Positions 7,973 through 37,974 of a DNA stretch of 37,974 nucleotides are shown in pieces (position 1 is the stretch's first letter; every line of letters starts with the position of its first letter). The notes under the pieces were generated by a model, which did not search any database, was not told the DNA's origin, and saw nothing but the letters and a program-made list of their open reading frames with translations. A program made the translations under genes and the position numbers. The stretch lies in IMG/VR virus record IMGVR_UViG_3300038701_001272, positions 1-37,974 of that record, one strand, 5' to 3'. This DNA is from a virus.

Positions 7973-8619
7973 TGGCATACGTCACACTAGAAGAAACAAA
8001 GGAGTATTTGCAAGTTACTACTACGGCAAGTGATTCGTTAATTGAAACGTATATTGAGATTGTTACTGATGAGGTAGATACATACACAGACAGAGTACTT
8101 AGTTTGACCACACACAGTAAGGTTTTAAACTATAAAGAAAGCATGGAAGATAGAAGCACTTACAGGCCATATAACATTGCGGTAGATTATCCACGGTTAT
8201 ACCTAGATGAGTATCCTGTAGTTGATGGAACCGTAGTACTTACCTATGACAACACAACCACCGTAAGTACAGATAATTATAAAGTTGATAATGATACAGG
8301 TGTGGTGTTTGTATATAACTATCAACAAGATGACGAGAGAAAGTTAGTAGGTACATACGTAGCAGGATATACCTCTACGAACGCCCCAGCTGCTCTTAAA
8401 GGTGTTGTATACCAAGGGGTGAAGTCTTACTATGAAAACAATGGTACATCATCTCAAGGAGGAGGTAATGTTAAATCTAAATCGCTTAAGGACTTTAGTG
8501 TTACTTATGGTAATGAGCAAGACAGTTTATTAACTAGGGGAGCAGATGGAGCTTTGGTGAAGACATATCTAGCATCAAATGAAAGTACATTACAAAAATA
8601 CTGTAGAGTAATTATATGA
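7972..8619 (+). CDS. Head-tail connector (gp6-like adaptor)
   Basis: 215 aa. The N-terminus (VTLEETKEYLQVT, then SLIETYIEIVTDEVDTYTDR) is the typical helical start of the HK97 gp6/SPP1 gp15 adaptor family, which forms the ring below the portal. The middle is beta-rich, and a loop with GGGNVKSKSLKDFSVTYG lies near the C-terminus, another recurrent feature of the family. It overlaps the following gene by four bases, and the gene order fits. Confidence 0.82.
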   Translation: MAYVTLEETKEYLQVTTTASDSLIETYIEIVTDEVDTYTDRVLSLTTHSKVLNYKESMEDRSTYRPYNIAVDYPRLYLDEYPVVDGTVVLTYDNTTTVSTDNYKVDNDTGVVFVYNYQQDDERKLVGTYVAGYTSTNAPAALKGVVYQGVKSYYENNGTSSQGGGNVKSKSLKDFSVTYGNEQDSLLTRGADGALVKTYLASNESTLQKYCRVII

Positions 8620-19294: not shown

Positions 19295-19590
19295 AAGAAC
19301 AACAAACATTATCGCATTGGGACAGATTGGAGCAGGAGCTTACTGGTTATGATGTACGAGGTATTGAGAGTTTTATTGATGGCAGCTACTGGCCAAGTAC
19401 TGAGTCTATGGCTAGGTCAGATGTGGATCTATTATATAGGAACTCACTATTACTTCTTTCTAAAAGTGACAATATAGATTCTGCACAGTATGTAAGTTTA
19501 CTCGTTCAGGAAGCGTATTGGGATTATCGTAATACGTTGCAAGACACTGAGCCTATGCCTGCTATATCCGACGAAGATTTAGAAGGTTAG
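19291..19590 (+). CDS. Unknown acidic protein, last gene of the rightward block (99 aa)
   Basis: Overlaps the HNH-like gene by four bases (ATGA) and ends inside the 3' end of the leftward VRR-NUC gene, with a 29-bp convergent overlap and no terminator between. It is acidic and helical (WDRLEQELTGYDVRGIESFI; EAYWDYRNTLQ) and ends in a Glu/Asp-rich tail. No family is recognised. Confidence 0.6.
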   Translation: MKEQQTLSHWDRLEQELTGYDVRGIESFIDGSYWPSTESMARSDVDLLYRNSLLLLSKSDNIDSAQYVSLLVQEAYWDYRNTLQDTEPMPAISDEDLEG

Positions 19591-20026
19591 ATCTCTGCTC
19601 TTTGCTAAGTCCTTCGATCTTAGAAAAATACTCGCACACATGATTATATGCATCTATTGCACTGTATGCAACTATGGTATCAAAGCTTTGTCTAAAAACT
19701 TCATTCAGCCAATATATCTGATCTGAGGAAGGTTTGTTGTACTTAGTCTTCATTTCAATAAACAGCCCATTGTACTCTTCGTTGGGCACAGGAACAAAGA
19801 TATCTGGAATGCCTGCCTTGCGTCCCTCAGCTTTTAATTTACGCCCTCTCAGCATATCTGCTTTTGTACGTCCGTAGGATTGATTAGGTATCGCAAATGG
19901 AAGCTTGAACTCTTCTAGGACGAATACACTTTGATTAAACCAACCAAACAAAAGCTTTTGTTCATAATGCTCCGTGTTTTTGGACCGGTGTTCTTTTAGA
20001 ATCTTTAGTTTCATATACATCAACAT
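19562..20026 (-). CDS. VRR-NUC domain nuclease
   Basis: Up to 154 aa; a second in-frame ATG at 20014 (MKLKILKEH) would shorten it by four residues. The PD-(D/E)XK core reads AEGRKAGIPDIFVPVP, then GLFIEMKTKYNKPSSDQ: the Asp of GIPD, then Glu and Lys of IEMK are the metal and catalytic residues. VRR-NUC proteins are structure-specific nucleases acting on branched or replicating DNA. It is the last gene of the leftward block. Its 5' end overlaps the upstream gene by 50-65 bases. Confidence 0.88.
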   Translation of the reverse strand: MLMYMKLKILKEHRSKNTEHYEQKLLFGWFNQSVFVLEEFKLPFAIPNQSYGRTKADMLRGRKLKAEGRKAGIPDIFVPVPNEEYNGLFIEMKTKYNKPSSDQIYWLNEVFRQSFDTIVAYSAIDAYNHVCEYFSKIEGLSKEQRSNLLNLRRI

Positions 20027-21214: not shown

Positions 21215-21231
21215 TAATAAAAAGTATTATT
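21215..21231 (-). repeat. Family A leader element, copy 1
   Basis: Minus strand AATAATACTTTTTATTA ahead of the gene starting at 21206. Other copies: 21754-21770, 26541-26557, 28775-28790, a shorter one at 30861-30874, and an orphan at 31772-31787. Lies 9-25 bases before the ATG, where a ribosome or S1-type U-rich contact would be. Confidence 0.7.
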
Positions 21232-21745
21232 TAACTCGTTTGTAAAGTACACCGTCAAGGGTAATGGTGTCCTTGGTGTCTTTAAACACACTCAAGTCTA
21301 CATACTGTAATGCATACCCATCCTGTCTAATCGCCTCGAGACAGATCTCAGGAGTCTGATTGTGTACATACTTTAATAGAGACCCATTCTGTCTAACCGC
21401 CTCGAGACAGATCTCAGGAGTCTGATTGTCTACATACTGTAATGCATACCCATTCTGTCTAATCGCCTCGAGACAGATCTCAGGAGTCTGATTGTGTACA
21501 TACTGTAATAGAGACCCATTCGGTCTAACCGCCTCGAGACAGATCTCAGGAGTCTGATTGTGTACATACTTTAATGCATACCCATCCTGTCTAACTGCTT
21601 CGAGACAGATCTCAGGAGTCTGATTGTGTACATACTGTAATGCATACCCATCCTGTCTAACTGCTTTGAGTGCGTCTTCGCCTTCATAGAATATTATATC
21701 TGACTCTTTGGTGCCTGTTTTCTCAAAGAATTCTGCTTTTGTCAT
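21227..21745 (-). CDS. DUF4116-type repeat protein
   Basis: 172 aa. A 22-residue unit (EAVRQDGYALKYVHNQTPEI, then CL) occurs about six times, alternating RQDGYALQ and RQNGSLLK forms, between a short N-terminal region and a ...VFKDTKDTITLDGVLYKRVK end. The pattern 'avrqnG.aLqyv..qtpEicleAv' is the DUF4116 repeat, an alpha-helical solenoid of unknown role. The copies are almost identical in DNA, so the array grew recently or is kept alike by recombination. A family A leader precedes the start. Confidence 0.85.
   Translation of the reverse strand: MTKAEFFEKTGTKESDIIFYEGEDALKAVRQDGYALQYVHNQTPEICLEAVRQDGYALKYVHNQTPEICLEAVRPNGSLLQYVHNQTPEICLEAIRQNGYALQYVDNQTPEICLEAVRQNGSLLKYVHNQTPEICLEAIRQDGYALQYVDLSVFKDTKDTITLDGVLYKRVK
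21290..21680 (-). repeat. 66-bp direct repeats coding the DUF4116 units
   Basis: The segment containing GAGACAGATCTCAGGAG recurs every 66 bp (for example 21338 and 21404). Differences are confined to a few codons. These are coding repeats and not a CRISPR array: there are no unique spacers. Confidence 0.9.
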
Positions 21746-21753
21746 GCCTAGCG

Positions 21754-21770
21754 TAATAAAAAGTATTATT
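21754..21770 (-). repeat. Family A leader element, copy 2
   Basis: Same 17 bases as copy 1, ahead of the DUF4116 gene start at 21745 and touching the stop of the upstream RHH gene at 21770. Confidence 0.7.
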
Positions 21771-21934
21771 TAAACATCTCCGTTGCTGCCTTCTTTAGAA
21801 AGTTCCAACCAGAGTAATGTCCTAATGAATTCTGCAACAGACACTCCCTGTTGCAAAGATGCTTCTTTGAGTGCGCTCTTTAACCCTTCCGATAAAGTAA
21901 ACTCAATTCGTTCTGTGTATTTTTTATAGCTCAT
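21770..21934 (-). CDS. Ribbon-helix-helix (Arc/CopG-like) transcriptional regulator
   Basis: 54 aa, ATG at 21934. The N-terminus ERIEFTLSEG gives the DNA-contacting beta strand. The two helices are GLKSALKEASLQQG and VSVAEFIRTLLWLEL, joined by the usual Gly turn, which covers the whole RHH fold. Such proteins bind DNA as dimers, often several dimers on short repeated sites. It is the first gene behind promoter 21940-21968, whose spacer carries a CGTA...TACGG dyad also seen in two other early promoters. I infer an autoregulated early repressor or switch. Only five bases separate the -10 box from the ATG, so its message may be leaderless. Confidence 0.85.
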   Translation of the reverse strand: MSYKKYTERIEFTLSEGLKSALKEASLQQGVSVAEFIRTLLWLELSKEGSNGDV

Positions 21935-21939
21935 ATTTG

Positions 21940-21968
21940 AATATATACGTAAAAAGTTACGGTGTCAA
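21940..21968 (-). promoter_or_regulatory. Early promoter P1 (RHH gene) with candidate operator in the spacer
   Basis: Minus strand TTGACA, a 17-bp spacer, then TATATT. The spacer (CCGTAACTTTTTACGTA) holds an inverted repeat. The A/T-rich stretch upstream of the -35 (plus strand 21966-21987) is nearly the same in front of P2 and P3. Confidence 0.85.
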
Positions 21969-21981
21969 TATTAAAATTAGA

Positions 21982-22194
21982 TTAAGACTCGGTTGTCAAG
22001 GAGTCAATGTAAGTTTCAACGTCTAGACCATCTAGGTCTACTCCTGTGAGGGCCTCACGTACGTTATCTATGTTGTATTGCCCAGTTCTATACAAACCTA
22101 TTACTTGGTTTACATATGCATCTATAAAGTTGTCATTTGCGTTTTGCATTGCTTCGTAGCCTGCAGGGTCGCTACCCAAATATGTCCATCCCAT
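21982..22194 (-). CDS. Unknown acidic protein (70 aa)
   Basis: I choose the ATG at 22194 (MGWTYLGSDPAGYEAMQNAN). A longer form from 22254 would run back into the end of the upstream gene and reads through an unlikely Tyr-rich leader. The rest is acidic and helical (DNFIDAYVNQVIGLYRTG) with VDLDGLDVETYIDSL at the end. No family recognised. The stop lies just upstream of P1. Confidence 0.6.
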   Translation of the reverse strand: MGWTYLGSDPAGYEAMQNANDNFIDAYVNQVIGLYRTGQYNIDNVREALTGVDLDGLDVETYIDSLTTES

Positions 22195-22210
22195 AATGTA
22201 ATAATAATAA

Positions 22211-22609
22211 TTAATAATCTTCCACGTTGAATACGATATAGCATATGTCGTCACGTTTCTCTATGAGGAGTACGCCTTTCTGATATGAGTGATCCAATAC
22301 TTCTTTGTGCGTGGGGGATTGTTCCCACATTTCAAAAGCAATTCGAACATCGCATAAGCTTCCCATGTAAAGTACTTCGCCTAGGTAGCCTTTGGTGTTA
22401 TAGTTTGCAGCACGTTCATACCAAGTCATATTAGAGCTGTCATGACTCCATGTATGTGTGGTGTGTAGGTCATCCATCTTAGCTTGTGCAAACGTATATA
22501 GTTCATCAGGTGGTATAGTGTGCGTGTTTGGGAATGCTACATATAAAACCACTCCAATGAGTATTAGGATTATTGGCATCGCAAATACAAACACTATATC
22601 TCTAGACAT
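22211..22609 (-). CDS. Membrane-anchored CAP/SCP-like domain protein
   Basis: 132 aa. Residues ~4-25 (IVFVFAMPIILILIGVVLYV) are an uncleaved membrane anchor or signal, which would place the rest outside the membrane. The outer part resembles the CAP superfamily (SCP/TAPS, PR-1): AQAKMDDL helix, a His in HTWSHDS, YLGEVLYMG where the family has GEN, then MWEQSPTHKEVLDHSY (family W..S..H...l), and YIVFNVED as last strand. Two His and two Glu for the CAP pocket are present. CAP domains are common in secreted proteins and rare in phages. Superinfection or cell-surface roles are only guesses. Confidence 0.65.
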   Translation of the reverse strand: MSRDIVFVFAMPIILILIGVVLYVAFPNTHTIPPDELYTFAQAKMDDLHTTHTWSHDSSNMTWYERAANYNTKGYLGEVLYMGSLCDVRIAFEMWEQSPTHKEVLDHSYQKGVLLIEKRDDICYIVFNVEDY

Positions 22610-22680
22610 TATTTATACATTAAAAAATATTCCTCTATAGATTTTCTAATTATTTCTTTCACTTTTTCTGTCTTTTTCAT
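22609..22680 (-). CDS. Tiny basic peptide (23 aa)
   Basis: ATG at 22680, stop TAA overlapping the next ATG (TAATG). Sequence begins MKKTEKVKEIIRKSIEEYFL. It is preceded by a family B leader exactly as its larger neighbours are, which is the main reason to believe it. No function can be assigned. Confidence 0.45.
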   Translation of the reverse strand: MKKTEKVKEIIRKSIEEYFLMYK

Positions 22681-22706
22681 ATAGTAAATATAATGCGGTT
22701 AAGTTA
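22681..22706 (-). repeat. Family B leader element, copy 1
   Basis: Minus strand AACTAACTTAACC, then a CATTATATTTACTAT stretch, ending at the ATG of the 23-aa peptide. Copies 2 and 3 are at 22949-22974 and 23186-23212. The last part could serve as a weak -10 box. Confidence 0.7.
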
Positions 22707-22710
22707 GTTC

Positions 22711-22932
22711 TTAACAACTCCAAGTTACATCCAGATCCTCTATAATTCGTTCTAGGTTCCCACTATCAACTCCCTCATAATTTTGAAGTCTAAAATCTAA
22801 CACCGCTTGGATCCTCTTAAAGAACTCTAGGCACTCTGCGGAGTCGATAAAGAAATAGTCATAACTCTCTTCTAAGTTTTTAAAATCTGAAGCGCATACT
22901 AAATATCTGTCACCGTCTTTTTTAATCTCCAT
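22711..22932 (-). CDS. Unknown acidic protein (73 aa)
   Basis: ATG at 22932 (MEIKKDGDRYLVCASDFKNL); an upstream TTG two codons earlier is less likely. Two strands are followed by acidic helices (ECLEFFKRIQAVLDFRLQNY). Ends in Trp-Ser-Cys. Preceded by family B leader copy 2. No family recognised. Confidence 0.6.
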   Translation of the reverse strand: MEIKKDGDRYLVCASDFKNLEESYDYFFIDSAECLEFFKRIQAVLDFRLQNYEGVDSGNLERIIEDLDVTWSC

Positions 22933-22948
22933 ATCCAAGGTCTTTTAA

Positions 22949-22974
22949 TAGTAAATATAATGTGGTTAAGTTAG
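22949..22974 (-). repeat. Family B leader element, copy 2
   Basis: Same as copy 1 apart from CACATT for CGCATT. It lies partly inside the end of the upstream coding sequence, whose last codons read GAA CTA ACT TAA. Confidence 0.7.
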
Positions 22975-23184
22975 TTCCTCACCTGGCCGTTTAAAATAAG
23001 CATAATCATGATGGAAAGCGCCCTGAGGGCCTTTGGTGATCTGTATCAGCTCCCAACCATCTTCCCCCATTTTATTAAAAAACCCGTCCCAGTACGCAAT
23101 ATCCTCTTTTTTAGTTTTAGATTCAAATACATCTCCGGATTTGAGCCATACTGTTTTGTATTCCCATTTTGTTCTTTCTTTCAT
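22966..23184 (-). CDS. DUF4177-like small protein (72 aa)
   Basis: Begins MKERTKWEYKTVWLKSG and contains FFNKMGEDGWELIQITKG and a closing YAYFKRPGE. This matches the DUF4177 pattern: a first strand 'w.Yk.v', then 'ln..g.dGWelv.v', and a final 'f.F.Rp' strand. The family is widespread in bacteria and phages, with no known function. Family B leader copy 3 precedes it. Confidence 0.8.
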   Translation of the reverse strand: MKERTKWEYKTVWLKSGDVFESKTKKEDIAYWDGFFNKMGEDGWELIQITKGPQGAFHHDYAYFKRPGEELT

Positions 23185-23185
23185 A

Positions 23186-23212
23186 TAGTAAATATAACGG
23201 TGGTTAAGTTAG
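23186..23212 (-). repeat. Family B leader element, copy 3
   Basis: Minus strand AACTAACTTAACC, a CACC variant in the middle, then TTATATTTACTATATG, which includes the start of the DUF4177-like gene. Confidence 0.7.
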
Positions 23213-23538
23213 TTTTTATCTTTCTGATGATTGTATAGACTTATAGATCCAGCTTCATTTTTCAAAACTACAAACCTAGGTTTCTCGCGTAGCTCTATAG
23301 ATGAGATTGTGAAATATGCCTTTCCAGTAAATGCTTTCTTGAAAAGCTCTAACTCCATCTTCCTAACAATATTATCCTCTTCGTCTATATTGTAATCATA
23401 ATTTAAGACCATGCTGGTTTTGTTACCTTCATTGTCTACTATACGCCAAGTGTTACATCCGTAGGGCAGTATTTGCCAATCTATGTATTCTAAGCATTTC
23501 TTTAATCTGGACATTGTTATAAGTTTGTATTCTTTCAT
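23209..23538 (-). CDS. Unknown protein (109 aa)
   Basis: Starts MKEYKLITMSRLKKCLEYID. Contains a WRIVDNEGNKTSMVLNYDYN strand pair and a long acidic turn. A second Met at residue 9 is an alternative start. No family recognised. The region ahead (23539-23573) contains TTATACT, a possible -10, but no convincing -35. Confidence 0.55.
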   Translation of the reverse strand: MKEYKLITMSRLKKCLEYIDWQILPYGCNTWRIVDNEGNKTSMVLNYDYNIDEEDNIVRKMELELFKKAFTGKAYFTISSIELREKPRFVVLKNEAGSISLYNHQKDKN

Positions 23539-23573
23539 ATTTTCTGAGTATAATGTCGATAAAGTCTAGTAAA

Positions 23574-24068
23574 TTAATTTGCTAATTCTTCTTCTAATTT
23601 GCTTATTGCTGCCCAATCATTCTCGTAAACTTTGTATTTGCTTCGACTTGTAAGTCGTATTGCTATCAGTTTACCCCCAGGCATTTCTTTATTGGGTACT
23701 ATATATGAATGCATAACTGTTTTACCCGGTTCATCTAAGCAAATTAGTGCATAGAAATCACAACTACGAACACGCCTACTGTACTCTCTTTTCCTTTGCC
23801 CTAACCCAAATCTTGTATTAGATTTATGATTCGCAAAAGTATACAGTTGATGGGTTGTTATTGTGTGCCCTCCCTTCGCAAGTTTTATCTTGCACTCACG
23901 TGTTGCAAGGGAGGATGTCTTAACTTCGATTCTTACACCGTTTGCAGTCATAAGATCGTAATCATGAAATGTAGGTAGGTTCGAGCACTTAATATCCATT
24001 TCTGCCAACTTATACATTGTATAGATTTCTCCAAAGTAACCTAAACTGTCCCTATTTCTTTTCTTCAT
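23574..24068 (-). CDS. PD-(D/E)XK-type endonuclease / resolvase-like protein
   Basis: 164 aa. The N-terminus DSLGYFGEIYTMYKLAEMDI is the first helix of the restriction-endonuclease-like fold; YDLMTANGVRIEVKTSS supplies the catalytic Asp and the E-x-K pair, as in Holliday-junction resolvase-like enzymes. The C-terminal half is basic (GQRKREYSRRVRSCDFYALI, a usual 'd.yal....' strand). A role in resolving recombination intermediates or in DNA degradation is inferred. Confidence 0.75.
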   Translation of the reverse strand: MKKRNRDSLGYFGEIYTMYKLAEMDIKCSNLPTFHDYDLMTANGVRIEVKTSSLATRECKIKLAKGGHTITTHQLYTFANHKSNTRFGLGQRKREYSRRVRSCDFYALICLDEPGKTVMHSYIVPNKEMPGGKLIAIRLTSRSKYKVYENDWAAISKLEEELAN

Positions 24069-24093
24069 GTTTCTAGTAGTCGATTATAAATAG

Positions 24094-24306
24094 TTAATCT
24101 AATTCTGTAGTGCCAAAGTAGAAATGATCTGTCTCTGCTATTCGGATGTTTAATCCTCTAAACTTAGTTATAATAAGACCTTCACTTTCTAACTCCCTAC
24201 CAAGAGCCCTTCTGTCACTTTCTGACATAAATAGAGATCTCCAGGTGTGCCCCTCTGACAAACTCTTCTTGTGTGCATCTGTTATTCTTTCTTCTAAGGC
24301 CTTCAT
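24094..24306 (-). CDS. Unknown small protein (70 aa)
   Basis: Starts MKALEERITDAHKKSLSEGH. A helical first half with MSESDRRALGRELESEGL, then strands (ITKFRGLNIRIAETDHFYFG). The helix-turn region could bind nucleic acid, but nothing is diagnostic. Family C leader ahead of the start. Confidence 0.55.
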   Translation of the reverse strand: MKALEERITDAHKKSLSEGHTWRSLFMSESDRRALGRELESEGLIITKFRGLNIRIAETDHFYFGTTELD

Positions 24307-24326
24307 ATCTCCGTGCTAAAAGTTAA
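24304..24326 (-). repeat. Family C leader element, copy 1
   Basis: Minus strand TTAACTTTTAGCACGGAGAT leading straight into ATG. GGAG is only three bases from the start codon, closer than a normal Shine-Dalgarno. Confidence 0.75.
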
Positions 24327-24337
24327 AATAAAATACT

Positions 24338-24580
24338 TTAGTGTTTCCCCGCACATGTCTCACAACACATTCCACTACTGCCTGCAAAGCAATTAAACTC
24401 GATTTCATCACCATCATCATACTCTATAGCTCTATGCTCTTCGCAAAAATATCCAGTGCACGCATAACATAGATATGACAGGCCTCTGTCTATCTTTTCA
24501 TCGCAGCCTTCATGCTCACAGATAGCATCCACGGAATAACCTCTTTCTATATCATCAAACTTGTAATAAGCATATCCCAT
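24338..24580 (-). CDS. Small zinc-binding Cys/His-rich protein (80 aa)
   Basis: Contains CEHEGCDEKIDRGLSYLCYA, then CTGYFCEEHR, then FNCFAGSSGMCCETCAGKH: nine Cys and four His in a short, acidic protein. The C-x4-C ... C-x2-C-x4-C-x2-H spacing is that of treble-clef or AN1-like fingers. It may bind two zinc ions and mediate protein contacts. No family is firmly recognised. Confidence 0.65.
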   Translation of the reverse strand: MGYAYYKFDDIERGYSVDAICEHEGCDEKIDRGLSYLCYACTGYFCEEHRAIEYDDGDEIEFNCFAGSSGMCCETCAGKH

Positions 24581-24600
24581 CTCTCCGCGCTAAAAGTTAA
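24578..24600 (-). repeat. Family C leader element, copy 2
   Basis: Minus strand TTAACTTTTAGCGCGGAGAG followed by ATG; identical to copy 3 over all 23 bases. Confidence 0.75.
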
Positions 24601-24601
24601 A

Positions 24602-24772
24602 TTAATGCCCTATCCTACCGATCTCGATAATTAAATCGTAAAGTATTGCGTATGGTATAAACAAATTCAGAATCATCACTAATAGTCCACCATATAAGAA
24701 TGCATAAATTAAATTGACTAGATAATATATTCTTATTATTAGCACTACTAACAATTCAAAAATGTTACCCAT
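24602..24772 (-). CDS. Small hydrophobic membrane protein (56 aa)
   Basis: ATG at 24772, stop at 24602. Nearly all hydrophobic: GNIFELLVVLIIRIYYLVNL is the first stretch and YGGLLVMILNLFIPYAIL the second, so two membrane passes are likely. A family C leader before the ATG and good packing support it as a gene. Early membrane peptides of this kind can be exclusion or lysis-timing factors; that is a guess. Confidence 0.65.
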   Translation of the reverse strand: MGNIFELLVVLIIRIYYLVNLIYAFLYGGLLVMILNLFIPYAILYDLIIEIGRIGH

Positions 24773-24792
24773 CTCTCCGCGCTAAAAGTTAA
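24770..24792 (-). repeat. Family C leader element, copy 3
   Basis: Same 23 bases as copy 2; the first bases are the stop codon of the upstream 121-aa gene. Confidence 0.75.
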
Positions 24793-25154
24793 GTTATTGG
24801 TCTATATGCTTTGACTGTGACAACCTGGTCAAAGGGTTCTACAGCTACAACGCTATATTTATGACCACAATCTTCCCAATCCATTGAACCTCTGAACACA
24901 TTGGTGACTCCGTAAATCTTAAAGTAGCCTTGTGATACACTGTTTATTTTTAACTCATATACCGATGCACTGATCTCATAACACTTATGTGTATCTACAT
25001 CTAAATCTTTCTCGATTTTGACGAATTCCCACTCCTCGTTCTCTTGTGAAGTCGGTATACCAGCTTCATCAAAGTCATAAATGAACTCATCTAGATATAA
25101 CGTTTGTAATATTTCAGCACCGTTAACTATTTCTGCAAATTTCTGTATACCCAT
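24789..25154 (-). CDS. Unknown acidic protein (121 aa)
   Basis: Begins MGIQKFAEIVNGAEILQTLY. Acidic N-terminal half, beta-rich second half with CYEISASVYELKI and KYSVVAVEPFDQVVTVKAYR. No family recognised. It has a family C leader. Confidence 0.55.
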   Translation of the reverse strand: MGIQKFAEIVNGAEILQTLYLDEFIYDFDEAGIPTSQENEEWEFVKIEKDLDVDTHKCYEISASVYELKINSVSQGYFKIYGVTNVFRGSMDWEDCGHKYSVVAVEPFDQVVTVKAYRPIT

Positions 25155-25174
25155 ATCTCCGCGCTAAAAGTTAA
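25152..25174 (-). repeat. Family C leader element, copy 4
   Basis: Minus strand TTAACTTTTAGCGCGGAGAT followed by ATG. Confidence 0.75.
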
Positions 25175-25178
25175 AATA

Positions 25179-25406
25179 TTATCCTTCGAATCTACCATCT
25201 CTAAATACCTGAGCCTTTATAAGTTGCAACATAGTTGTCTTTTCCTGAGGGCTAATCTCACCCCTCAAAGCCATCTTCTCTACTTCAAAGTTTTTCATCT
25301 GCAAAAAAGTCGCATCTATCTCAGCTTCTATTTGCACCTGAGTCATACCACTCGTGTCATGTTGCCTGTCTGTCGAATACTCTGAATTGTCTATATAGCT
25401 AGTCAT
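25179..25406 (-). CDS. Unknown small protein (75 aa)
   Basis: The ATG overlaps the stop of the Gly-X repeat gene (ATGA), so the two are probably co-translated. A polar N-terminus is followed by helices (TQVQIEAEIDATFLQMKNFE, then SPQEKTTMLQLIKAQVF). No family recognised. Confidence 0.6.
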   Translation of the reverse strand: MTSYIDNSEYSTDRQHDTSGMTQVQIEAEIDATFLQMKNFEVEKMALRGEISPQEKTTMLQLIKAQVFRDGRFEG

Positions 25407-25651
25407 ATATGTTTAATAATAAAGTCATACTGGTTAGCCTCATCTCCAGATCCATATCCATATCCATATCCATCTCCAGATCCATATCCAGATCCATATC
25501 CAAATCCAGATCCATCTCCAAATCCATATCCATATCCAGATCCATATCCATATCCAGATCCATCTCCAAATCCATATCCATATCCAAATCCATATCCATA
25601 TCCAGATCCATCTCCAGATCCAGATCCATCTGGGGTTATTAAGCTTGCCAT
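25403..25651 (-). CDS. Gly-X repeat protein (82 aa) encoded by hexanucleotide repeats
   Basis: Starts MASLITPDGSGSGDGSGYGY; about 60 residues follow a G-[YSFD] alternation, and the protein ends DEANQYDFIIKHI. All three minus frames are open here, but only this one has a start at the end of the DUF6948-like gene (13-bp overlap) and a stop coupled to the next ATG. Such Tyr/Ser/Gly sequences are disordered and may form condensates or fibres. In my recollection similar proteins lie beside DUF6948 genes in other phages; I cannot search for this here. Confidence 0.65.
   Translation of the reverse strand: MASLITPDGSGSGDGSGYGYGFGYGYGFGDGSGYGYGSGYGYGFGDGSGFGYGSGYGSGDGYGYGYGSGDEANQYDFIIKHI
25441..25630. 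repeat. Imperfect hexanucleotide tandem repeat (about 31 units)
   Basis: Plus strand units are CCATAT, CCAGAT, CCATCT or CCAAAT. The length is a multiple of six throughout, so slippage by one unit adds or removes one Gly-X pair without shifting the frame. Good candidate for copy-number variation. Confidence 0.9.
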
Positions 25652-26004
25652 ATAGGTACGTCTTTAATAGATAGTCGTGCTTTCTCAGTTGCATCTAATA
25701 TTTCTATAACACCTCGGATTTCCGCATTAACTTCAGCAGGAAACTTACACTCCGACGGTTTTGACACGCCATCAATAGCAATCTGTGAGATTGAAGCTGC
25801 ACCTTCCCAGTACCACAGACGCCTACATTGTATTAGTTGTACAGTGTCGCCTTCTTGTTTTTTTAAATATCCTGCAAAAACTCCTGCACGATCGGCTCGT
25901 ACAATCACATACTTCATCCCCTCATGTTCTTGTGCGTATACATTGCCTTGAGATTCATTATTCACTTCGGACTCTTTGACGTATCTCTCTCCGTTGATTT
26001 CCAT
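25639..26004 (-). CDS. DUF6948-like protein (121 aa)
   Basis: The core MKYVIVRADRAGVFAGYLKK, then RRLWYWEGAASISQIAIDGV, then KPSECKFP and VIEILDATEKA, matches my memory of the DUF6948 family ('yvivRt.sAGVfaG...RRlWyWsGAaslsqlA..G...p..CKFp...v.ei.e..ekA'). Function is unknown. Mixed alpha/beta, soluble. It is followed directly by the Gly-X repeat gene. Confidence 0.75.
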   Translation of the reverse strand: MEINGERYVKESEVNNESQGNVYAQEHEGMKYVIVRADRAGVFAGYLKKQEGDTVQLIQCRRLWYWEGAASISQIAIDGVSKPSECKFPAEVNAEIRGVIEILDATEKARLSIKDVPIWQA

Positions 26005-26036
26005 AAAATGATAATTAATAAATATAAAGTAATTAT

Positions 26037-26195
26037 TTAAGAATATTGTATATAATTCTCTAAGTTTTTTTTGACCGATCGAATTAGCTCCTTAATCTCT
26101 CTTCGCTTCTTAGGTCTAACAGTAAGCTTAAGTCGTGTCTCTAATTCCTTAATGTACACCTTCATTCGAAATATATGTTGCTCTTTAGTTGTCAT
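26037..26195 (-). CDS. Small basic helical protein (52 aa)
   Basis: I choose ATG 26195 (MTTKEQHIFRMKVYIKELET); a start at 26246 would run through the 3' end of the upstream small gene. Rich in Arg and Lys with RPKKRREIKELIRSVKKNL, probably nucleic-acid binding. No family recognised. Confidence 0.5.
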   Translation of the reverse strand: MTTKEQHIFRMKVYIKELETRLKLTVRPKKRREIKELIRSVKKNLENYIQYS

Positions 26196-26200
26196 ATAGA

Positions 26201-26338
26201 TTAAATAAACTGATATAAACTTCCTAGTATCATTAAAAATATACAAAGTCCTGCTACAGCTTCAAACAATACACCTAGGAGACCCTCATACTGCCCACGC
26301 TTCGTATCCTTATAACTCATTGATAAATCCTTTCTCAT
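26201..26338 (-). CDS. Small single-pass membrane protein (45 aa)
   Basis: ATG 26338 lies two bases after the upstream stop; a second in-frame ATG is at 26320. Basic N-terminus (MRKDLSMSYKDTKRGQYEG), then LLGVLFEAVAGLCIFLMILG as a membrane helix and a short SLYQFI end. The basic side should stay in the cytoplasm. Confidence 0.55.
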   Translation of the reverse strand: MRKDLSMSYKDTKRGQYEGLLGVLFEAVAGLCIFLMILGSLYQFI

Positions 26339-26340
26339 GG

Positions 26341-26532
26341 CTATGAATTAATATCTACAAATTTATCGTAATCAGTATCTGCTTTCTCAAGCTCTTCATC
26401 ACTAAATCGTGGGTACTCTGGTTCCTCATCTAAAGCCTTCTTCGTAAGTGATACTGCCTTAGCAAGTAACATGTCTTGGATCTCTGCAACTGAAGCAGTC
26501 GCCATATAATCCTGGTCTTGGTCGTATGTCAT
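26341..26532 (-). CDS. Unknown acidic protein, first gene behind P2 (63 aa)
   Basis: Starts MTYDQDQDYMATASVAEIQD, very acidic (DEEPEYPRFSDEELEKADTD). No family recognised. Small acidic early proteins often mimic DNA or bind host enzymes; nothing here proves that. A family A leader and promoter P2 lie just upstream. Confidence 0.6.
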   Translation of the reverse strand: MTYDQDQDYMATASVAEIQDMLLAKAVSLTKKALDEEPEYPRFSDEELEKADTDYDKFVDINS

Positions 26533-26540
26533 AAATATAA

Positions 26541-26557
26541 TAGTAAAAAGTATTACC
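26541..26557 (-). repeat. Family A leader element, copy 3
   Basis: Minus strand GGTAATACTTTTTACTA, just after the -10 box of P2. Its first bases would be at or near the transcript start. Confidence 0.65.
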
Positions 26558-26560
26558 TAT

Positions 26561-26589
26561 ATAGTACCGGTAGAACTTACGTATGTCAA
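26561..26589 (-). promoter_or_regulatory. Early promoter P2 with candidate operator
   Basis: Minus strand TTGACA, a 17-bp spacer (TACGTAAGTTCTACCGG), then TACTAT. Upstream of the -35 it shares with P1 the stretch CCTAATTTTAATGTTGACA (P1 has one base change in ATGTT and one in CCTAA). It opens the unit of small genes from 26532 leftwards. Confidence 0.85.
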
Positions 26590-26608
26590 CATTAAAATTA
26601 GGTTAAGG

Positions 26609-26806
26609 TTAGTCGCCTTTCCATTCGAGAAAATCTTCTGTATTAGCTATGTCAGATAGCATCATCTTAAGTACCTCTCTTGGGTCGTCTGGCCGATCCC
26701 ACCACCCGATTATACTGTCGGTATAACCATAGTCTCCGAGATCTTCAACAACCCCGTATAGGTACTCACCTTCATATTCTCTTTTTGCTAGTTTGTATCT
26801 CCACAT
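26609..26806 (-). CDS. Unknown small protein (65 aa)
   Basis: Begins MWRYKLAKREYEGEYLYGVV, then GYTDSIIGWWDRPDDPREVL and an acidic helix to the end. Rich in Trp, Tyr and Asp. It is the last gene of the ERF unit; promoter P2 follows its stop. No family recognised. Confidence 0.6.
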   Translation of the reverse strand: MWRYKLAKREYEGEYLYGVVEDLGDYGYTDSIIGWWDRPDDPREVLKMMLSDIANTEDFLEWKGD

Positions 26807-26809
26807 AAT

Positions 26810-27070
26810 TTATTTATTAACTTGTGATCTAGATATGCTAGCCTCTGTAGCTTGCTGTTTAAGGTTCTGTATGTAGCCTTTAAGCACTTCTTTCTTCCCC
26901 TTGAGCTGTGTGGCTTTGTACTCATATTCTGCTCGTGTTTGGTCTATAAGATCCAGGTAGCCTAGCATTTTATTCACCATAGATCGCATCTCTTCAGGTG
27001 TGTTGATATCTGAAAGGTTCTTAACGAATTCGATATCACTTTGCATTTGTTGTAGTATTTCTGGGTTCAT
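26810..27070 (-). CDS. Coiled-coil protein (86 aa)
   Basis: Almost wholly helical: EILQQMQSDIEFVKNLSDIN, then MLGYLDLIDQTRAEYEYKAT, then a basic GKKEVLKGYIQNLKQQ helix. Overlaps the zinc-finger gene by ATGA. Probably dimeric; role unknown. Context with ERF suggests a recombination or replication accessory. Confidence 0.6.
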   Translation of the reverse strand: MNPEILQQMQSDIEFVKNLSDINTPEEMRSMVNKMLGYLDLIDQTRAEYEYKATQLKGKKEVLKGYIQNLKQQATEASISRSQVNK

Positions 27071-27885
27071 ATAAGATCGAAATCATTTTGTTTAAATACT
27101 TCTTTGGCATATCTACCTATACCTTCTAATACTGGAGCACCTGCTAAAAACCTTGCTTTGTTGATGCTCCCGAAGCGACTTCTATAGGTTTCCTTTGAAG
27201 GCATTTTATATGTAGAAAAATCGACCTCTCTGGGTGTCCTACCATGCACTTCGTAGAACTGCTTAATATAGGCAAGTAGTTCTGATTCTGTATACTTTGG
27301 TTTTGCTTTAGGTCTAACGGCTTGCTTTAGCCCCGCAAATCGAATTGCGTTTGGATAGCTTCCGTATGTTTGGTAAATGTTGTATGCCAACGTGCTACCA
27401 TATTCTTTTTTAAATTCTTTAATACTAGGTGTCTTACCTAGTTTTTTCTTTAAGTCTAAGATTTTTTGTATGAGTTGGTCGGGACATGAACCTTTTTTGT
27501 TTCGAATTTCCAGAGACTCCCTTTTGCCTTTTCGAGATTTATTATTTTGTACGGTTGCCTTGCGGGCTTTTTCCTTGGCAAGCTTACTACTATGCATCTT
27601 TTTTAAACCATTTAAAGGTGTATTTTTACTTAGCTTTAACCGTACTTTGTCAGAAACTAGTCGAGTAGACCCTGCAATTTTAAACTTCCTTTTATATTCG
27701 CGCTTACTTACCCCATGGGTTCTTGATGTGTGCGCTGCTAAGTTGTCAAAACACTCACCGCATATATGACATTGAAGCTTTCCGTCGTCAGTTCGAATAC
27801 CTAGTGTTCCCAGGTATCCATAGCCTTCTTTGACTTCTCGCAACGGCTCTTTATAGTTTGTGAACGTTATTTCTGGTAGATTCAT
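27067..27885 (-). CDS. Zinc-finger protein with HNH-associated repeats
   Basis: 272 aa. Residues ~38-65 (LQCHICGECFDNLAAHTSRT, then HGVSKREYKRKF) are a MucR/Ros-like finger with C-x2-C-x10-H-x4-H. A basic linker follows. Two units at ~145-190 and ~205-250 fit the 'homing endonuclease associated repeat' (GKTPSIKEFKKEYG...YGSYPNAIRFAGL; GRTPREVDFSTY...FGSINKARFLAG). No HNH catalytic core is visible, so this looks like a DNA-binding protein assembled from homing-endonuclease parts. It could also be a remnant of a homing element that now serves as a regulator. Confidence 0.75.
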   Translation of the reverse strand: MNLPEITFTNYKEPLREVKEGYGYLGTLGIRTDDGKLQCHICGECFDNLAAHTSRTHGVSKREYKRKFKIAGSTRLVSDKVRLKLSKNTPLNGLKKMHSSKLAKEKARKATVQNNKSRKGKRESLEIRNKKGSCPDQLIQKILDLKKKLGKTPSIKEFKKEYGSTLAYNIYQTYGSYPNAIRFAGLKQAVRPKAKPKYTESELLAYIKQFYEVHGRTPREVDFSTYKMPSKETYRSRFGSINKARFLAGAPVLEGIGRYAKEVFKQNDFDLI

Positions 27886-28250
27886 GTTGGTTTATTTAAT
27901 AATTCTGGATTCTCATAAATATTGCCTACAATATTTGACTCCCAGTATCTTTCAAAATCGTTATCTAATACGTCTGTCTTGGCTGGTAATTTATGTGCCA
28001 TAAACTGACCACCCCATAATGGTACAAATTTGATTACATACAAGCCCTCTGTCTCATCTAATGCTTTATACCTAAAAAGATCCCCTTCATAAATCTCAGT
28101 ACCATCCCTGTCATTGAGTCCTGTGTATTGCATAAATATGGCGTAGTTCTGTGCGATGTTGCCGTTTTCATCTATATATAAGTAATCTTCCCTTGGATAC
28201 AGCATTTTTTCTGTCCCAATATCCCATAATCTAAATTTAATTTCTCTCAT
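27882..28250 (-). CDS. YopX-family protein
   Basis: 122 aa. The start MREIKFRLWDIGTEKML, then AIFMQYTGLNDRDGTEIYEGDLF, is the family signature ('ikFRawd...k.M...............m.qyTGlkDkngkeIyeGDiv'). YopX proteins are small beta-rich phage and prophage proteins of unknown function. Overlaps ERF and the zinc-finger gene by ATGA on both sides. Confidence 0.92.
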   Translation of the reverse strand: MREIKFRLWDIGTEKMLYPREDYLYIDENGNIAQNYAIFMQYTGLNDRDGTEIYEGDLFRYKALDETEGLYVIKFVPLWGGQFMAHKLPAKTDVLDNDFERYWESNIVGNIYENPELLNKPT

Positions 28251-28768
28251 AACTGTTCCTTAACCTCACTATATAATTTGTCATATCCTGGTTGACCTTT
28301 CCAATGCACCTTATTAGTCTTATTATTTCTCAAGCCTTCATACGCCTTACCATTCTTCTCCCCTTTAAGAAGGGTATATGCTTTCTGAGGTGTTCGCTCC
28401 TTAAGTTCTTCCGGCGTTTGTGCGTCCACATCGTCATCTGCCAAAAGATCAAAATATGCTACTAATAAGTATCGGCGCGCATAAGTTATTGAGGCACCTG
28501 TGTGCTGTGCAGGATTCATAGTCCCTCCCTTCATTAGTTCCATGTCTAAACTACTAACTGGTTCACCATCAAGGCACAAGCTTATAATTGTTCCATCCAT
28601 AACATAGTTGCTTATTACATCATGTTTTAGCAATATAGGCTTAATCTGGGCATGTAAAGCATCTAGTGAAGTATGTGAATAATTAAAGTTTTTGATTGTC
28701 ACTTTTTTATCCTTTGGAAGTTTAAGTTTCTGTACTTCCTTAATAAGGTTTCTAATCTTTGGCTTCAT
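28247..28768 (-). CDS. erf: ERF-type single-strand annealing recombinase
   Basis: ATG at 28768 (MKPKIRNLIKEVQKLKLPKD); a TTG three codons earlier is less likely. 173 aa. Shows the ERF pattern: FNYSHTSLDALHAQIKPILL, VSSLDMEL, then QHTGASITYARRYLLVAYFD and an acidic DDDVD. ERF anneals complementary single strands and can circularise phage DNA or drive replication by recombination. The C-terminus is shorter than in P22 Erf. First gene behind P3. Confidence 0.9.
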   Translation of the reverse strand: MKPKIRNLIKEVQKLKLPKDKKVTIKNFNYSHTSLDALHAQIKPILLKHDVISNYVMDGTIISLCLDGEPVSSLDMELMKGGTMNPAQHTGASITYARRYLLVAYFDLLADDDVDAQTPEELKERTPQKAYTLLKGEKNGKAYEGLRNNKTNKVHWKGQPGYDKLYSEVKEQL

Positions 28769-28774
28769 AAGTAG

Positions 28775-28790
28775 CAATAAAAAGTATTAC
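28775..28790 (-). repeat. Family A leader element, copy 4
   Basis: Minus strand GTAATACTTTTTATTG, just after the -10 box of P3 and before the erf start. Confidence 0.65.
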
Positions 28791-28793
28791 TGT

Positions 28794-28822
28794 AATATAC
28801 CGTATAAATTACCGTAAATCAA
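28794..28822 (-). promoter_or_regulatory. Early promoter P3 with candidate operator
   Basis: Minus strand TTGATT, a 17-bp spacer (TACGGTAATTTATACGG), then TATATT. Upstream shares TAATCTAAACTTAATATTGA with P1 apart from a few bases. It drives erf, yopX-like, zinc-finger and two small genes. Confidence 0.85.
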
Positions 28823-28835
28823 TATTAAGTTTAGA

Positions 28836-29093
28836 TTAAAAAGGCAGATCGTCTGGCTCTACTTTCTCTTGCTCTTTAACCTCAGGTTTAAACTCATTGA
28901 CCCATAGGCTATGTGTTTTCCCGTATTGGTCAACCTCTCGTTTTTTGCCTAGAGTTAGTTTTAGGTATTTGCTTCCATTAAATTCGTTAATATCTTCTTT
29001 ACGAATTTTTGAAAGGTTGATTGATAAATTAATAAGGTCATAATTGTCTACTTGTTTCCCTGATCCTATGTAATGTTTCTTGTTATTTTCCAT
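28836..29093 (-). CDS. SSB-like protein with C-terminal DDLPF tip (85 aa)
   Basis: Contains LINLSINLSKIRKEDINEF, then GSKYLKLTLGKKREVDQYGK, where 'gkkY..l.v..kre.d.yG.ths' is typical of an OB-fold strand region in phage single-strand binding proteins. It ends EPDDLPF, like the acidic tip through which bacterial SSB binds partner proteins. It is short for an SSB, and fits between the primase-helicase and ERF genes. Last gene of the replication unit before P3. Confidence 0.65.
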   Translation of the reverse strand: MENNKKHYIGSGKQVDNYDLINLSINLSKIRKEDINEFNGSKYLKLTLGKKREVDQYGKTHSLWVNEFKPEVKEQEKVEPDDLPF

Positions 29094-31771: not shown

Positions 31772-31787
31772 TAGTAAAAAGTATTGC
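31772..31787 (-). repeat. Family A element, orphan copy
   Basis: Minus strand GCAATACTTTTTACTA with no start codon close behind it; the nearest gene begins about 180 bases on. It may mark a lost gene or a transcript start. Confidence 0.5.
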
Positions 31788-31903: not shown

Positions 31904-31908
31904 ATAAT

Positions 31909-32092
31909 GCCGGGGCTAGTGACTAGACGGAGATATCGTTGGGTTAGCTACCAATTGAGCTGCATATGGGAACACTTCGATAAGCCATTGACAGGAGGAC
32001 TACCACCGAAAACGGTCATCCTAGGAGCGTAGTAGGGTTAGGGGGTCATGAGCGTAATATCGAGAATGTGGGTTCGAATCCCACGCCCCGGC
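31909..32092 (+). ncRNA. tRNA-like RNA of about 184 nt (acceptor stem and T-arm with a long insert)
   Basis: GCCGGGGC (31909-31916) pairs perfectly with GCCCCGGC (32085-32092). Immediately inside the 3' strand is a perfect T-arm: GTGGG, TTCGAAT, CCCAC (32068-32084). The 5' strand is followed by TAGTGACTAGACGGAG, which is faintly like the D-region of tmRNA (GACGG). No normal D or anticodon arm fits, and the ~150-nt interior folds into other small stems (ACCG-AAAA-CGGT at about 32007-32018). Options: a tRNA carrying an intron, a very reduced tmRNA-like RNA, or a decayed tRNA. The acceptor and T-arm are seen; the class is not settled. Confidence 0.5.
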
Positions 32093-32099
32093 CCGTATT

Positions 32100-37669: not shown

Positions 37670-37974
37670 ATGGGATTATTTGACATCTTCCGTAAGGGCG
37701 CTACTTCTTCGATCCATACAAAGGATCCAGGGTTTGTAGTGACCAACTTTACAAGGAACACGACGTTCCAAGGATTAATAGAGAGCAGAGACCAAGACAA
37801 CTTCTTCGACCAATATATTTTATACGTCTATAAGTGCATAGATTTAATATCTAACACGGTAGCTTCACAAGATATCACGCTTGTAAGTGTTGCAGATGAA
37901 AATGTACAAATAGATCATGATATATCAAAAGACCTGAGTCACTTTAATAACTACATGAATTTGTGGGAAGCGCC
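37670..37974 (+). CDS. Portal-MuF fusion protein, N-terminal part
   Basis: The true ATG of the portal gene is at 37670 (MGLFDIFRKGATSSIHTKDP). The frame runs to the window end and is continued at base 3 of the window. The 95 residues lost from the left-end reading are here (QYILYVYKCIDLISNTVASQ). Spacing to terL is 39 bases. The last two bases differ from the left copy and are probably an edge error. Confidence 0.92.
   Translation, partial: MGLFDIFRKGATSSIHTKDPGFVVTNFTRNTTFQGLIESRDQDNFFDQYILYVYKCIDLISNTVASQDITLVSVADENVQIDHDISKDLSHFNNYMNLWEA
37849..37972. repeat. Right copy of the 124-bp terminal redundancy
   Basis: Identical to 2-125. See the left copy. Confidence 0.95.

Follow-up and report, generated by a model that had tools for sequence, protein, structure and literature searches.

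The window analysed here is the whole of IMG/VR virus record IMGVR_UViG_3300038701_001272, which is 37,974 bases long. The subject is a set of three minus-strand promoters (P1, P2, and P3) and a gene for a 54-amino-acid (aa) ribbon-helix-helix (RHH) protein located directly behind P1. The two ends of the record (1-127 and 37848-37974) overlap by 127 bases, of which 124 are identical. This overlap indicates that the phage genome in the record is very likely complete and circularly assembled. The open reading frame called at 108, the portal gene, is interrupted by the record ends. The structural and packaging genes are on the plus strand. The replication genes and small early-type genes occupy the minus strand between about 31.6 kb and 19.56 kb. 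This region includes a DnaD-like helicase loader, a primase-polymerase/helicase, an ERF annealing protein, a YopX protein, and an HNH-repeat protein. A DUF4116-repeat protein, a VRR-NUC nuclease, the RHH protein, and many small genes of unknown function are found in the same region.

P1 (TTGACA-N17-TATATT, 21940-21968) precedes the RHH gene. P2 (TTGACA-N17-TACTAT, 26561-26589) opens the small-gene unit, the first gene of which is at 26532-26341. P3 (TTGATT-N17-TATATT, 28794-28822) opens the ERF unit, which contains the ERF, YopX, and HNH genes. The coordinates, hexamers, and 17-bp spacers of the three promoters agree with the first-pass annotation of this DNA, with the -35 hexamer of P3 corrected to TTGATT. 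Each promoter starts directly past the stop codon of the preceding gene. P1 and P2 match the promoter consensus at 11/12 and 10/12 positions and are the top two minus-strand sites in 13 kb; P3 matches at 9/12. The consensus score by itself is weak promoter evidence, since promoter-like sites are no more common in these 13 kb than in shuffled sequence (26 observed and 43 in shuffles). The -10 hexamer of P1 ends 5 nt ahead of the RHH ATG, and no in-frame start is present upstream. The P1 transcript is therefore predicted to be leaderless.

The gene starts among the listed genes of the whole window are AT-rich and almost entirely without Shine-Dalgarno sequences. Both features are known for Bacteroidota, as noted in PMC6847099. 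A Bacteroidota-type promoter consensus, TTG-N19-21-TAnnTTTG, was tried because the genes are without Shine-Dalgarno sites; it was rejected for P1-P3, as only three occurrences were found, all away from these promoters. P1-P3 look sigma70-like rather than Bacteroidota-like despite the Bacteroidota-like gene starts.

The protein encoded behind P1 (MSYKKYTERIEFTLSEG...LQQGVSVAEFIRTLL..., 21770-21934, minus strand) is a candidate Arc-like repressor according to its profile matches and predicted fold. The first-pass annotation had named it an RHH protein, and this assignment holds by profile, below the cut-off, and by predicted fold. The Pfam match to RHH_5 has E=3.7e-4 and 20.6 bits, below the curated cut-off of 26, and the match to RHH_1 has E=0.013 and 15.8 bits, below that of 20.5. 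The PHROG family "Arc-like repressor" is matched with E=1.4e-4. A single-sequence AlphaFold model contains helices at residues 16-29 and 33-50 with a mean pLDDT of 81. Foldseek returned ParG, Arc, AmrZ, AtaR, and CopG as top matches with a probability of up to 0.99 and E-values of about 0.1-0.3, which are not surprising for 54 residues. A G-x-S turn, G30-V31-S32, is present between the helices. The protein follows the short beta-strand, helix, G-x-S/T/N turn, and helix layout of the RHH superfamily (MetJ/Arc/CopG), with the strand not assigned in the monomer model. This turn is general to RHH proteins (PMC2812701). Within the superfamily, base contacts are made by the strand and phosphate contacts by the G-x-S turn (PMC2812701, PMC12645479), and the base-contacting residues of Arc are 9, 11, and 13 (PMC12645479).

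The protein was also aligned without gaps to the Arc sequence. In this co-linear alignment, the two proteins share G30-x-S32-V33 and K47-E48-G49, and Q9-F10-N11-L12-R13 of Arc corresponds in position to the strand R9-I10-E11-F12-T13. The identity is 9/53. Shuffled sequences did as well in 32/20000 cases at offset 0 and in 100/2000 cases at any offset, so that the co-linearity is weak as a sign of homology. The sole PDB sequence match was the antitoxin VapB26 (E 0.43). In the early proteins scanned, no further regulator was recognised with a score above the cut-off. The HNH-repeat protein contains a weak match to a ROS/MucR-like zinc finger.

A dyad, taken here as a candidate operator, lies in the spacer of each promoter. 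O1 (CGTA-N6-TACG, 21947-21962) is in the P1 spacer, CCGTAACTTTTTACGTA on the minus strand. O2 (CGTA-N5-TACC, 26568-26582) is in the P2 spacer TACGTAAGTTCTACCGG, and O3 (GGTA-N5-TACG, 28800-28814) is in the P3 spacer TACGGTAATTTATACGG, both read in the direction of transcription. A CGTA/TACSG dyad in each spacer had been proposed from the first reading. The dyads are present and statistically supported; the half-site gaps are corrected to unequal values of 6, 5, and 5 at P1, P2, and P3, respectively. The pattern [CG]GTA-N5-6-TAC[CG], which was picked after the spacers had been seen, arose in 0.03-0.15% of spacers with shuffled letters. A further search, for the best common dyad of any sequence, which allows for choosing the motif afterwards, gave a score of 26/30. 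Among 2000 triplets each, this score was matched or beaten once with letter-shuffled sequence and 4 times with real 23-mers. Read instead as direct repeats of CGGTA, the spacers scored 25, compared with 26 for the dyad; this reading was not preferred.

A position weight matrix was further built on two of the sites and used to rank the third among about 75,800 positions. P1 ranked first, P2 ranked first in a three-way tie, and P3 ranked second. These ranks are supportive and not independent, since the half-sites were selected with all three promoters in view. The site thus ranked recurs at the RHH gene's own promoter and at two further promoters of the early-type region. The identity of the P1 spacer to the other two is at the chance level (6/17 and 3/17), and the dyad is nevertheless kept. 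The register of the dyad shifts by 1-2 bp between promoters.

The promoters are also similar outside the spacers. A shared upstream element was found on the minus strand by pattern search as TTAATCTAATTTTAATATTGAC at P1 (21964-21985), TTAACCTAATTTTAATGTTGAC at P2 (26585-26606, also found by self-BLAST), and TTAATCTAAACTTAATATTGAT at P3 (28818-28839). The pattern TTAAYCTAANNTTAATRTTGAY, allowing up to 3 mismatches, was derived from the same three sites at which it was then counted; it occurs exactly 3 times in the 38-kb genome, each time upstream of the -35 of P1, P2, or P3, and 0.11 occurrences are expected. The nearly identical A/T stretch described earlier upstream of the -35 is real and unique to these promoters in the genome. 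With a pairwise identity of 13-17/22, it is their best conserved part. An unprompted BLAST of P1 against its own genome returned P2 with 85% identity over 34 bases (E=9e-5).

P2 and P3 have a downstream element, AATACTTTTTAYT, in common. Copies of this 13-bp sequence were observed on the minus strand with first bases at 28788, 26554, 21767, 21228, and 31785. Four of them stand about 7-10 nt ahead of a start codon, namely those of the gene behind P3, the gene behind P2, and two genes (21745 and 21206) without a recognised promoter. The fifth copy, at 31785, has no adjoining start codon. The element is possibly a translation or transcription-start signal.

This anatomy supports an RHH autorepressor with predicted operators in three promoter spacers. 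The reading draws on the Arc-like fold, the G-x-S turn, the dyad at the protein's own promoter, the Arc-like gap at P2 and P3, and the retention of the P1 dyad despite divergence. On balance, the 54-aa protein probably acts as an Arc-type autorepressor whose repression extends to P2 and P3. The first-pass interpretation is supported in part. Two RHH dimers, one per CGTA half-site, would occupy the dyad between the -35 and the -10. The bound dimers would cover the seat of the polymerase and block initiation. A single dimer per spacer had been suggested previously; this is unlikely because the bound form of Arc is a dimer of dimers and the two half-sites of the dyads are about one helical turn apart. 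Arc occupies its 21-bp operator in this form (PMC12645479), and the tetramer stoichiometry proposed for the present protein would be the same. At P1, the protein, translated from the predicted leaderless mRNA, would regulate itself. It would also lower expression of the small-gene unit from P2 and of the ERF/YopX/HNH unit from P3. Its likely use would be a negative feedback by which the minus-strand units, presumably early ones, are expressed in an initial burst and then capped; Arc has this role for the P22 immunity-I genes.

The novelty claimed in the first pass, which knew of no described phage system with exactly this layout, is overstated, as close precedents exist in P22 Arc and SSV1 F55. 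Arc of the Salmonella phage P22 is a phage-encoded RHH protein of 53-54 aa from the immunity-I region, and in size and origin it is like the protein found here. The Arc operator lies between the -10 and the -35 of its own promoter, Pant, and its half-sites are TAGA-N5-TCTA. The N5 gap at P2 and P3 equals that of Arc, whereas the N6 gap at P1 differs. The half-site is CGTA here, three spacer dyads are distributed over 7 kb, two of them at the promoters of the ERF and small-gene units, and ant or mnt genes were not recognised. The autoregulation of Arc is credited to Youderian 1982 where PMC2629481 cites it.

F55 of the Sulfolobus virus SSV1 is a small viral RHH protein whose binding sites lie at Tlys, its own promoter, and at the immediate-early promoters T5, T6, and Tind (PMC5569661). 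Its promoters are archaeal and have tandem repeats rather than a spacer dyad. F55 maintains lysogeny, whereas nothing in this phage shows lysogeny. The same source describes SvtR of the Sulfolobus virus SIRV1, a 6.6-kDa RHH regulator that acts as a repressor at its own promoter and has three further binding sites in the viral genome (PMC5569661). SvtR is also archaeal, and its strongest site is about 80 nt from the gp30 TATA box, not in a promoter spacer. The autorepressor CopG, encoded by plasmid pMV158, is a very small RHH protein and keeps RNA polymerase off its own promoter (PMC5703833); it differs in serving plasmid copy control, with four dimers on one promoter and a single target operon. 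These comparisons indicate a probable, candidate member of the known Arc/F55 kind with an unusually regular three-site layout.

Relatives of the phage were searched for at the protein and DNA levels. Viral contigs were scanned at the protein level for RHH, ERF, TerL, and the major head protein without finding relatives, and the promoter pattern gave none either. Annotated phages gave no DNA match, and tblastn of the RHH protein against them returned nothing even at E=1. Scans with a TerL profile found one distant relative, L008, with 43% identity in TerL and about 26-34% in other structural proteins; no recognisable RHH or early-gene homologues are present on its 25.7-kb contig. Upstream of the ERF gene, an 85-aa protein (28836-29093, minus strand) has a C-terminal DDLPF tip like that of single-strand binding (SSB) proteins. 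An ERF-profile scan found phages that have ERF together with an SSB-like gene matching this protein at up to 57% (contigs L179, L168, and L145). The order in those phages is reversed, with ERF followed by the SSB-like gene, and therefore a gap equivalent to that of P3 does not exist. None of the 216 loci examined contained an RHH relative.

Several observations weigh against the autorepressor. Both RHH Pfam scores are under the curated cut-offs, and BLASTP aligns nothing between the 54-aa protein and Arc. A dyad of equal quality is present at 8231-8245 inside a structural gene, and therefore the motif alone is insufficient. The gap at P1 is 6 and not 5. The P2 and P3 spacers are 10/17 identical (p=0.004), so that these two sites are not fully independent. 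The upstream element is more strongly conserved than the dyads and has no role in the repressor model except as an UP-like element. No relative carrying the early region was found among viral contigs, genome contigs, and annotated phages.

The main rival explanation, which we regard as unlikely, is that P1-P3 are duplicates of one promoter cassette. The AT-rich upstream element would then be the functional part, as an UP element or as a site for an unknown activator or host factor, the dyads would be remnants, and the RHH protein would act elsewhere. The conservation and uniqueness of the upstream element, the downstream element common to P2 and P3, and the likeness of the P2 and P3 spacers are all in agreement with duplication. 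However, the P1 spacer has diverged to chance identity with its dyad still kept, and the register shift of the dyads is expected of maintained rather than copied sites. Judged from these sequences, the persistence of the dyad in a diverged spacer speaks against simple copying, and shared ancestry alone does not appear to account for the dyads.

Still less probable is the explanation that the dyads are operators of another repressor, from the phage or the host, with the RHH gene as merely one of its targets. Many early proteins are of unknown function, and the zinc-finger match of the HNH-repeat protein could point to such a repressor; however, of the proteins scanned, the RHH protein is most clearly a DNA-binding regulator, RHH repressors usually autoregulate at their own promoter, and the half-site gap suits binding by two RHH dimers. 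It is very improbable that the protein represses only its own promoter, as an antitoxin or as a partition/copy regulator of the plasmid type, and that the likeness of P2 and P3 is incidental: Foldseek also gives the antitoxins AtaR, CopASO, and ParD, plus ParG, and VapB26 is an antitoxin, but the adjoining gene encodes a DUF4116-repeat protein, no toxin family was matched in the P1 unit, 54 aa leave little room for a toxin-binding tail, and the leave-one-out ranks tie O2 and O3 to O1.

The units behind the promoters were also annotated. The unit behind P1 had been called a regulator unit, and this description fits one recognisable regulator; the remainder consists of the DUF4116-repeat gene, small unknown genes, and the VRR-NUC nuclease gene. 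The DUF4116-repeat protein (21227-21745, minus strand; Pfam DUF4116 7.5e-35) directly follows the RHH gene. Its gene contains 66-bp direct repeats, and their near-identity suggests a recent expansion. The VRR-NUC nuclease (19562-20026, minus strand; Pfam VRR_NUC 9.8e-8) is the last gene of the P1 unit. The first gene after P3 encodes the ERF-family single-strand annealing protein (28247-28768, minus strand; Pfam ERF 3.5e-14). Its start is most likely the ATG at 28768 and not the TTG at 28777.

Several repeats were observed among the small genes. Four neighbouring small genes begin with a near-identical leader TTAACTTTTAGCRCGGAGAKATG (25155-25183, 24773-24801, 24581-24609, and 24307-24335); these leaders recall the start-associated sequences known from cluster K mycobacteriophages (PMC3203893). 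A second intergenic repeat stands between successive small genes at 22681-22715, 22948-22982, and 23186-23218. It corresponds to the direct-repeat families D10-D12, with GGTTAAGTTAGTT adjoined by TAGTAAATATAA on the plus strand. A tandem array of 6-nt units at 25399-25694 (minus strand) is open in all three frames of its strand and reads as GSGDGSGYGYG, MDLDMDMD, or WIWIW repeats. Elsewhere, a 190-nt stretch at 31908-32097 (plus strand), beside a tRNA-Gln gene, has the complementary ends GCCGGGGC and GCCCCGGC and a T-loop-like GTGGGTTCGAATCCCAC. Its only Rfam match is a 17-nt match to the tmRNA 3' end (E 0.0013, below the Rfam cut-off), and its fold is no better than that of shuffled sequence.

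A broader role may tentatively be considered for the 54-aa protein. In a lytic-type phage, a single Arc-like protein of the RHH family, translated from a leaderless mRNA that it represses itself, might coordinate three units via like-placed spacer operators and thereby act as the main early-gene brake, independent of lysogeny control. If true, the mechanism of Arc-type spacer operators, which is known from a single small immunity region, would be extended to a genome-wide early-transcription brake in an uncultured phage lineage. CGTA-N5/6-TACS in a promoter spacer would then be an operator rule usable for finding similar regulons in metagenomes. Apart from that, the regulation would be of an ordinary phage kind.

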